Assembly: GCF_010091945.1 (NCBI RefSeq)
Contig: NZ_WVIE01000016.1
Coordinates: 62,001 to 126,000, forward strand
DNA: 64,000 bases
Source of the DNA: Myxacorys almedinensis A
GTDB lineage: Bacteria > Cyanobacteriota > Cyanobacteriia > Leptolyngbyales > Leptolyngbyaceae
Direction: 5' to 3'
The notes under the pieces were generated by a model. The model saw nothing but the letters and a program-made list of their open reading frames with translations, was not told the DNA's origin and made no database searches. This document shows positions 38,855-41,859 of the stretch, in pieces (the stretch's first letter is position 1; each line of letters starts with the position of its first letter). The position numbers were made by a program, and so were the translations under genes.

Positions 38855-40663
38855 ATGACCCTACTTCGATCTCTTTCTACACCCACGCTGCCCCTGCAAA
38901 CGGCTCGAAGTGTAGGACGCCAAAACCAGGCAATTGTGCTGATGGTGCTGCTGTCGGGGATAATTATCGGTGGTTTGGGCGGGCGGTTGGTTCATTTGCA
39001 GTTGGTGGACGGCGATCGTAATCGTCAATTAGCAGAAACCAACCGAATTCGGCTGATTCCCAAACCTCCAGAGCGGGGCAAAATCTTCGATCGCAAGGGC
39101 AGAATTTTAGCCGGAAGTCGGCTGTCTCATTCCGTTTATTTGCAACCCCTAACTCAGAAGAAAGCAGACTGGCATAAAACCCGTCAGCGCCTCGCCGACA
39201 TTCTCAACATTCCGGTGCAAGCTATTGAGCGGCGATTAGCCGAAGAAGGCTACAGATCTCCCTATATGGTGCGGATTGCCCGGGGGGTTAGCCCACAAAA
39301 AGTGACTGCCCTAGAAGAATATCGCGCTGAGCTAGAGGGGGTAGAGGTGGATGCAGAAGCCATGCGCGACTATCCCCACGGCGACTTAGGAGCGCATGTC
39401 ATCGGCTATACCGGGGAAATGAATGACCAAGAGTTGCAACGTCGCCAAGGCAAAGACTATCGGCTAGGCGATGTGATCGGTCAGATGGGCATTGAGGCTG
39501 CCTTTGAGCAGCAACTGCGGGGCGAATGGGGCGGTCAGCAAGTTGAGGTGGATGGGGCGGGGACTGTGTTAAACGTCTTGGGTGAGAAAGAAACTCGCGC
39601 TGGGAAAGATGTCACGGTAACGCTCGACTTAGAGCTTCAAAAGGCGGCTGAAGCAGCGCTGGGAATCCAAAAAGGTGCGATCGTAGCCCTCGACCCAAAC
39701 ACGGGTGCCATTCTGGCGATGGTCAGCCGCCCTGGATTTGACCCCAATCTATTCACCACGCATATGTCAGACGAGAAGTGGAAACAGCTTCAAAGTCAAG
39801 ACCAGCCGTTTTTGAACCGGGTTCTGCAAAGCTATCCGCCTGCCAGTACCTTCAAGATTGTGACAACTACGGCAGGCTTAGAGTCTGGCAAATTTTCACC
39901 GCAGACCGTTCTCAACACTTATCCATCGCTCCATGTCAGCGGCGTTGATTTTGGTGAGTGGAATCATGCTGGCTTTGGTCCTCAAGGCTTTGTAGGGGCG
40001 ATGACGTGGAGTAGTGATACGTTCTTTTATCAAATCGGGCTAGGGATGGGGGAAAAGCCCCTCATCGAGTGGACGCGCCGCTACGGATTTGGGCAGAAGA
40101 CGGGCATAGAACTGAGTGCTGAAGAATCACCTGGACTTGTTCCTGATGCGCTGTGGAAGCAAAAACAGGTGAAGCAAGCGTGGTTTGTTGGCGACACGGT
40201 AAATATGACGATTGGGCAGGGCTATCTTGAAGCAAGCCCGTTGCAAGTGGCAGGGATGTTTGCGATCGCGGCGAATGGTGGCTATCGGGTCAAGCCGCAT
40301 CTGCTTAAAGAGAACGCAACTGCCCAAGCTTGGCGCCAGCCGCTCAATCTGAGGTCGGATACAATCCGGCTACTACGAGAAGGTCTGCGGGGCGTAATCA
40401 GCACCGGAACAGGGCAAGCCCTGAACATCCCAACGTTGCCCCCCGTGGCAGGCAAGAGCGGCACGGCAGAAGATATGGGGCAGGGGTCTCATACCTGGTT
40501 TGGAGCTTTCGCGCCCTACGATAAACCTGAAATTGTCGTGGTTGCAATGGGTGAGTTTTCTGGGGGAAGCGGCGGTTCAGTGACGGCTCCCATGGTGCGC
40601 CAGGTCATGGAGGCGTATTTTAAACCGAAGCAGACAAAAGCCAAAGCACAACAGCATCGCTAA
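38855..40663 (+). CDS. mrdA: Penicillin-binding protein 2, peptidoglycan transpeptidase
   Basis: 602 residues: one N-terminal membrane helix (27-48), a PBP dimerisation domain, and a transpeptidase domain with active-site S331 in PPASTFKIV (K334), second motif WSSDTFF, and KSGTAE near 541. This is a class B PBP of the elongation type rather than FtsI by overall sequence, cross-linking septal or side-wall peptidoglycan in the periplasm. Its stop overlaps the convergent DUF3318 stop by four bases. Confidence 0.85.
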   Translation: MTLLRSLSTPTLPLQTARSVGRQNQAIVLMVLLSGIIIGGLGGRLVHLQLVDGDRNRQLAETNRIRLIPKPPERGKIFDRKGRILAGSRLSHSVYLQPLTQKKADWHKTRQRLADILNIPVQAIERRLAEEGYRSPYMVRIARGVSPQKVTALEEYRAELEGVEVDAEAMRDYPHGDLGAHVIGYTGEMNDQELQRRQGKDYRLGDVIGQMGIEAAFEQQLRGEWGGQQVEVDGAGTVLNVLGEKETRAGKDVTVTLDLELQKAAEAALGIQKGAIVALDPNTGAILAMVSRPGFDPNLFTTHMSDEKWKQLQSQDQPFLNRVLQSYPPASTFKIVTTTAGLESGKFSPQTVLNTYPSLHVSGVDFGEWNHAGFGPQGFVGAMTWSSDTFFYQIGLGMGEKPLIEWTRRYGFGQKTGIELSAEESPGLVPDALWKQKQVKQAWFVGDTVNMTIGQGYLEASPLQVAGMFAIAANGGYRVKPHLLKENATAQAWRQPLNLRSDTIRLLREGLRGVISTGTGQALNIPTLPPVAGKSGTAEDMGQGSHTWFGAFAPYDKPEIVVVAMGEFSGGSGGSVTAPMVRQVMEAYFKPKQTKAKAQQHR

Positions 40664-41274
40664 AAGTCTTGTTGCCGCATTGATTCTGGAATACCAACTG
40701 GGGAAAGACCCGCGATCGCACGCAACGCTTGGCATCTCAACAGTTCAGTAAAGGTCAGCGATCGCCCTTCGTTTTGGGCAACAGATGCGATCGCAGAGAG
40801 CAGATGTCCGGCAGCGTCGGTTTCGGTATAGCCCCGCCGTTGGGCAATTTGTAGGGCTTTTTCGTCAGCGTCGAGGTCTTTACGAGAGCTACGATTGCTG
40901 CGCCAGATCTGAGTCAGCGCGATCGCGCCGAGGGCGGTTGTGGCTGCTATTCCAACCGCATCTTGCTGCAATACCTCAAACCCCAACCCTGCAACCCCCG
41001 CAACTGCCAAACCCAGCGACAGATTGGGTTGGAACCATCTCACACCTGCTAGCCAACATACCGTCCGCAACATCAGCAAGTCTCGCTGCGGACGAGAAAG
41101 GCGACTCCACAGATCAAAATTAATATAGACACTGCGATCAATTCTCCAAGGCAACGGAAAGGGAGCATCAATCACAAGCCTTTGGTCTGGCTTGCTGACC
41201 AGTTTGGTGAACATTCGCCCAGAGGCAGGCATGATGTCCAAAAGCCGGCGGACTTCAAGTTCGTAATCAAGCAT
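40660..41274 (-). CDS. DUF3318 domain protein
   Basis: 204 residues from MLDYELEVRRLLDIMPASGRM; the track starts 13 codons earlier. The N-terminal half resembles DUF3318 (PFPLPWRIDRSVYINFDLWSRLSRPQRDLLMLR). Two weak hydrophobic segments (LSLGLAVAGVAGLGFEVL, VGIAATTALGAIALTQIW) follow. Cyanobacterial family of unknown function. Convergent with mrdA. Confidence 0.72.
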   Translation of the reverse strand: MLDYELEVRRLLDIMPASGRMFTKLVSKPDQRLVIDAPFPLPWRIDRSVYINFDLWSRLSRPQRDLLMLRTVCWLAGVRWFQPNLSLGLAVAGVAGLGFEVLQQDAVGIAATTALGAIALTQIWRSNRSSRKDLDADEKALQIAQRRGYTETDAAGHLLSAIASVAQNEGRSLTFTELLRCQALRAIAGLSPVGIPESMRQQDF

Positions 41275-41370
41275 AAACCAGTGGGCGATGGAAGGATACG
41301 TTCTAGCGTACAAGCTTCAGAACCGCAATTGAAGCATTTTCCACCACCCACACCGCTTTATTCAGTTGGT

Positions 41371-41496
41371 TTATTCAGCCAAAAACAACAGATCGGGCGA
41401 AACCCAATTAATTAGCATGAAAATAGTAAACGCAACACTAACTGAAACGACAGCTAGCATTGGGGCACTCGAAAGATAGCGAGGAAAACCAGTCAT
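41371..41496 (-). CDS. Second, divergent PsaJ-like protein
   Basis: 41 residues, too short for the ORF track. It begins MTGFPRYLSSAPMLAVVS and ends NWVSPDLLFLAE, with one membrane helix. The RYLSSAP and PDLL blocks match PsaJ of photosystem I. It lacks the EFNRF block and the C-terminal His of PsaJ, residues expected to ligate chlorophyll. GGAG seven bases before the ATG is a good ribosome site. It lies downstream of psaF-psaJ on the same strand, beyond a terminator-like hairpin. Confidence 0.72.
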   Translation of the reverse strand: MTGFPRYLSSAPMLAVVSVSVAFTIFMLINWVSPDLLFLAE

Positions 41497-41633
41497 AGCT
41501 AAACTCCATAAATTTACTGTTGATGAGTTTTAGGTTAGAAAAACCATGCTGAGGTTCTCATCATTCTTAAGAGTCACTTTGCTAAGGCAGTCTCAGCGTT
41601 AAGAAATAATTCGATCGCTCGATCTTTACACAA

Positions 41634-41670
41634 AAACTCGCGACCTTCTAAAAAGAGCGATCGCGAGTTT
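41634..41670 (-). terminator. Terminator after psaFJ
   Basis: On the minus strand AAACTCGCGA ... TCGCGAGTTT is a 10-bp perfect stem with a 17-base loop, followed by TTG with T-rich sequence. It separates psaF-psaJ from the second psaJ-like gene, which therefore may be expressed at a lower level by read-through or from its own promoter. Confidence 0.7.
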
Positions 41671-41739: not shown

Positions 41740-41859
41740 CTAATTGAGGGGATGCGAGAGCAAATCGGGAAAGAACCGATTAAACTCGATCAACATGCCA
41801 GCCGTAAAGGTTAGCCAAAGCGCAGTCAAAACAGGAGCAGAAGACAGATAACGAGCCAT
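41740..41859 (-). CDS. psaJ: Photosystem I reaction centre subunit IX (PsaJ)
   Basis: 39 residues, below the ORF-track cut-off. [20 protein letters not shown] ... [17 protein letters not shown] is a canonical PsaJ, with one helix, the conserved IEFNRF Glu and the near-terminal His. PsaJ stabilises PsaF in the PSI membrane core. GGAGG five bases before the ATG. It is 43 bases after psaF, the usual psaFJ operon order. Confidence 0.93.

Follow-up and report, generated by a model that had tools for sequence, protein, structure and literature searches.

Why does a cyanobacterium carry a second psaJ-like gene behind psaF and psaJ, and could such a gene contribute a working part of photosystem I (PSI)? 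The question is raised by a locus of Myxacorys almedinensis A that lies in the window, by which we mean the whole stretch of 64,000 nucleotides that was analysed. The gene is referred to here as psaJx, and a paralogue that is not linked to psaF as psaJ3; both names were coined in the present analysis.

The psaJx gene and its locus

A sequence-only reading of the window had described a tandem second psaJ-like gene behind psaF-psaJ, and we confirmed its presence. On the minus strand the order is psaF, psaJ, psaJx and a gene for a DUF3318 protein, with tsaD upstream and divergent (Table 1). The psaJx ORF encodes 41 amino acids (MTGFPRYLSSAPMLAVVSVSVAFTIFMLINWVSPDLLFLAE, with the C-terminus PDLLFLAE), starts with ATG and has GGAG 7 nt upstream of the start codon. 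In most relatives a (T)GGAG or AGGA motif occupies the same position. The protein matches Pfam PSI_PsaJ (PF01701) with 36.5 bits (curated cut-off 22.4) and thus belongs to the PsaJ superfamily, although some other psaJx members fall below this cut-off (e.g., G006 and G253). Against the NCBIfam equivalog model for canonical PsaJ (PRK02733, cut-off 69) it scores 23.6, far too low for a canonical PsaJ, whereas the neighbouring psaJ passes with 80.2. The two share length, a single helix, the RYLSSAP start, N30, the PD motif and a place behind psaF. Genome-wide, we identified two PsaJ genes and one PsaF gene. A DUF3318 gene lies 3' of psaJx in 13 of the 14 carriers of the window's family, and none adjoins psaJ in the canonical-only loci inspected.

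Table 1. Features of the psaF-psaJ-psaJx locus, in coordinates of the window.
Feature	Position	Strand	Basis
DUF3318 gene, 3' of psaJx	40660..41313	minus	
psaJx, 41-aa PsaJ paralogue without Thr22, Glu28 and His39	41371..41496	minus	ORF, Pfam match, homologues
GGAG motif resembling a ribosome-binding site, 5' of the psaJx ATG	41504..41507	minus	
Hairpin and T-run resembling an intrinsic terminator, psaJ/psaJx gap	41626..41670	minus	
Canonical psaJ, with counterparts of Glu28, His39 and Thr22	41740..41859	minus	
psaF, sole copy in the genome	41903..42406	minus	

Chlorophyll-ligand residues

In T. elongatus, the ligands of the three PsaJ chlorophylls are Thr22, Glu28 and His39 (PMC7002129). When psaJx of the window is set against canonical PsaJ in an ungapped register, Ala, Leu and Leu stand at these positions. 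The absence of the Glu of EFNRF and of the C-terminal His had already been noticed and holds; the change of Thr22 to Ala is a third ligand loss. In this register Thr22 is found in one of 20 psaJx proteins, and Glu28 and His39 in none of the 20. The corresponding counts for canonical PsaJ are 43, 47 and 40 of 47. Because all three ligands are lost, psaJx is predicted to carry fewer chlorophylls, and from its residues we infer that it lacks the three of PsaJ. Chlorophyll can also be bound via water, lipid or backbone. Searches of PDB sequences returned PsaJ chains, one designed helix protein and one PsaJ-PsaF fusion, with the Glu kept in the alignments shown, and no solved psaJx was recognised among them.

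A pigment-free PsaJ has precedents. The far-red isoform PsaJ2 binds no chlorophyll and is without Thr22 and Glu28 (PMC7002129). An engineered PsaJ-PsaF fusion of the cyanophage type, which is a fusion protein whereas psaJx is a separate gene, yields functional PSI and wild-type growth although the pigments of PsaJ and PsaF are untraceable (PMC3903132). Partial losses are also found. In Acaryochloris one PsaJ chlorophyll disappeared together with the counterpart of His39 (PMC8058080). Picocyanobacterial PsaJ has likewise lost His39 but, unlike psaJx, keeps Glu28.

Distribution and loss of canonical psaJ

The sequence-only reading had named a lack of homologues and transcripts as the mark of a chance or decaying copy. 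Homologues do exist: psaJx was found in 20 of about 300 sampled cyanobacterial genomes (the window's included), in five families. Eighteen of these carriers come from a class sample of 291 genomes, where they score at least 66.9 bits for psaJx with a gap in scores beneath, and two (G002 and G008) from family searches. Within the window's family, psaJx is present in 14 of 42 genomes. Named carriers include Myxacorys californica WJT36-NPBG1, of the same genus as the window, as well as Phormidium tanganyikae FI6-MK23, FACHB-63, LEGE 13415, Leptolyngbya sp. Prado105 and Leptolyngbyaceae cyanobacterium CSU_1_3. Linkage to psaF is complete, as psaJx lies directly 3' of psaF or of psaF-psaJ in all 20 loci.

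Six genomes have the psaF-psaJ-psaJx tandem (the window, G008, G029, G033, G273 and G290). The other 14 carriers, Myxacorys californica among them, have psaJx without canonical psaJ, and in their whole genomes a lax Pfam search detected no further PsaJ that clears the family cut-off. Each of these 14 has a single psaF, as do 19 of the 20 carriers overall. Some psaJx-only assemblies are good (G058 is one contig and G006 five contigs), and for several carriers the assembly is a draft or comes from a metagenome. Direct comparison of the window with Myxacorys californica (G001) shows that psaF and psaJx are kept and that the stretch with canonical psaJ is gone. Of the 14 psaJx carriers in the window's family, eight are without canonical psaJ, which all 28 other genomes have (Fisher p 2.5e-5, kinship ignored). 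On both the TsaD and PsaF trees, psaJx-only genomes fall in several separate lineages.

Between the window and Myxacorys californica, psaJx has a dN/dS of 0.034 (about 22 synonymous and 8 nonsynonymous changes). For most other psaJx pairs the ratio lies between 0 and 0.18; two outliers near 0.33 involve few changes each. For canonical psaJ, the pairs G029/G273 and G000/G029 were excluded, being misaligned through unequal C-termini. Six residues (Ser9, Ser20, Phe26, Ile29, Asn30 and Pro34) do not vary among 17 aligned psaJx sequences. Since the gene is conserved, and since several relatives kept only psaJx, it is probably a working part of the photosystem and not a decaying copy.

Terminator and control of expression

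A terminator between psaJ and psaJx, and with it separate control, had been proposed for this locus, and both proposals gained support. A hairpin with a run of T's behind it lies at 41634-41670. Its stem length, together with a T-rich tail, was reached in two of 500 dinucleotide shuffles and in four of 526 tiles of the same size from the window. The hairpin is missed by a terminator scan with a loop limit of 8, and the fold of the whole region lies only 1.5 standard deviations below shuffles. Five of the six tandems (the window, G029, G033, G273 and G290, four of them from one genus) have a stem of at least 11 bp with a T-rich tail between psaJ and psaJx, and in each case the observed stem was reached by 0 to 3 of 500 shuffles. 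For the tandem of G008 just a six-pair stem was reported. The tandem hairpins contain a palindrome of the GCGATCGC type, which is common in cyanobacteria.

In psaJx-only genomes, psaF and psaJx are separated by 30-215 nt. The hairpin finder detected no stem in this gap in 11 of the 14 genomes, and stems of 9-11 pairs occur in G006, G072 and G085. Given this difference, tandem genomes probably have psaJx as a unit of its own, and in the other carriers it probably belongs to the psaF operon.

Co-variation with PsaF

The type of PsaJ follows PsaF more closely than it follows TsaD, requiring four changes on the PsaF tree versus 12 on the TsaD tree, although both trees are built from few columns and the association is confounded by descent. 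There are two groups of PsaF with psaJx, one of them native to the window's family. The other (G002, G004, G020, G050, G053, G151, G058, G072 and G085) stands beside the PsaF of f5 genomes, contrary to the TsaD tree, which suggests either that psaF was transferred with psaJx or that change was convergent. PsaJ types separate more cleanly in the membrane and C-terminal half of PsaF than in its N-terminal half. At PsaF position 131 (numbered as in T. elongatus), 93% of canonical genomes have Ala, whereas none of the 20 psaJx carriers does; 16 of these have Glu instead. No correlated change was seen at PsaF Trp76, which lies beside one PsaJ chlorophyll and is invariant in 61 sequences. In five psaJx-only genomes, Tyr stands in place of PsaF Trp79. 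Eight genomes (G050, G053, G058, G072, G085, G151, G128 and G137) share an insertion of about 23 residues within the N-terminal region of PsaF; six of these are psaJx-only, and the other two are f5 genomes with a Glu28-bearing PsaJ.

A probable alternative subunit IX and competing explanations

We consider it probable (roughly 0.7) that the product of psaJx is an alternative PSI subunit IX, placed at the PsaJ site beside PsaF without the PsaJ chlorophylls, expressed separately in tandem genomes and serving elsewhere as the sole PsaJ. The psaJx protein would form a single membrane helix in the place of PsaJ against PsaF. With Thr22, Glu28 and His39 replaced, it would be unable to hold the three chlorophylls. 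PsaJ contacts and stabilises PsaF (PMC11449065; PMC8689207), and its chlorophylls have been suggested to form an energy bridge to a neighbouring antenna (PMC7002129). By keeping the contact and dropping the peripheral chlorophylls, psaJx may preserve PsaF and remove a possible bridge of this kind. In the window and its five tandem relatives the protein would be made separately and be exchangeable for the canonical subunit, as canonical psaJ precedes its gene, in most cases with a terminator between the two. In several lineages the canonical gene is gone, and psaJx directly behind psaF would be the only PsaJ. Incorporation into PSI and conditional expression are inferred, and stress or high light as the trigger is our guess.

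PsaJ is dispensable in laboratory mutants, so loss of psaJ does not by itself prove that psaJx replaced it. The alignments are short and the trees weak.

The serious rival is lineage-specific drift or transfer, by which psaJx would be the ordinary, constitutive PsaJ of certain lineages, drifted or acquired with psaF, and the tandem of the window a temporary stage following acquisition, without conditional use. We regard this as somewhat doubtful. It would account for psaJx-only genomes being commoner than tandems (14 versus six) and for the PsaF group in which psaF and psaJx occur jointly in lineages that stand apart on the TsaD tree. It fits less well with the six genomes that keep both copies near-intact and constrained, five of them with a terminator between, or with psaJ3, the closest relative of psaJx, which many genomes have alongside canonical psaJ.

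The sequence-only reading had offered both an alternative PSI subunit and an assembly factor. The subunit is favoured by the place of the gene behind psaF, purifying selection, the 14 genomes with psaJx as sole PsaJ and the correlated PsaF changes. A transient role in PSI assembly or stability, or in partnership with PsaF without becoming a permanent subunit, would be compatible with loss of the pigment ligands and with the terminator that sets psaJx apart in tandems. We consider such a role unlikely, because psaJx-only genomes would then have no PsaJ at all; in these 14, psaJx is the sole PsaJ-family gene and lies mostly within the psaF operon without a terminator. It also keeps the helix register of PsaJ free of gaps, with N30 and P34.

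Identity with PsaJ2 of far-red light photoacclimation (FaRLiP), or origin as a relic of its cluster, is very improbable. PsaJ2 is also an alternative PsaJ without Thr22, Glu28 and pigment (PMC7002129), and in PMC10694217, an analysis of 696 PsaJ sequences, it is reported to cluster with visible-light forms from Leptolyngbyales. However, the window genome has neither psaF2 nor a far-red cluster (one psaF and two psaJ genome-wide, no PsaJ2), most other carriers likewise have one psaF, and psaJx is without the C-terminal insertion with Tyr40 described for PsaJ2, so identity with PsaJ2 was rejected. Unlike PsaJ2, psaJx occupies an ordinary psaF locus and replaces canonical psaJ outright.

A chance ORF or decaying psaJ duplicate, as the score below the NCBIfam canonical cut-off and the missing ligands might suggest, has a negligible probability and is ruled out by low dN/dS and by conservation in 20 genomes with six invariant residues, and psaJx is moreover retained where canonical psaJ was lost.

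If psaJx is an alternative subunit IX, evolution has removed the three PsaJ chlorophylls several times, sometimes with both versions in one genome. The repeated loss, and the presence of both versions side by side, make the role of these chlorophylls and the swapping of subunits in visible-light PSI testable in culturable strains. Annotation and structural work that assumes one PsaJ per genome can overlook an isoform. A broader proposal, which we advance tentatively, is that chlorophyll-free PsaJ isoforms (psaJx and psaJ3) are widespread and are swapped into visible-light PSI under stress, severing a peripheral antenna link, and that they have displaced the pigment-binding PsaJ for good in several lineages, with PsaF adapting.

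We found no description of a second visible-light PsaJ of the psaJx type that displaces the canonical gene, in a search that covered mainly open-access papers and no bioRxiv preprints. The type is thus provisionally regarded as undescribed, and the visible-light Leptolyngbyales forms of PMC10694217 may include psaJx or psaJ3.

The paralogue psaJ3

psaJx and psaJ3 form one group (93/100 support) on a long stem, with the divergent psaJx of G053 apart. psaJ3 was identified in about 19 of 291 sampled genomes, which are Leptolyngbya-like, f24 and f32 genomes. In no genome searched were psaJ3 and psaJx seen together. psaJ3 differs from psaJx in its longer N-terminus, its location away from psaF and its presence alongside canonical psaJ. 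Thr22 and Glu28 are absent from 17 of 17 psaJ3 proteins, and the C-terminal His (His39) is kept in 12 of the 17. The loci (L041-L043, L046-L048, L050, L051, L079-L085, L088 and L089) encode 47-69 aa. In G011 (L185:8501-11738), psaJ3 lies downstream of a psaB gene; a possible partner is the third psaB paralogue that PMC10694217 relates to Leptolyngbyales sequences. Four genomes have a DUF4383 gene near psaJ3, one an HLIP-like gene and one a gene with a YflT stress domain (L193:5645-6748, L194:3791-4261, L199:6240-7339 and L200:6267-8607), neighbours that hint at a stress setting.
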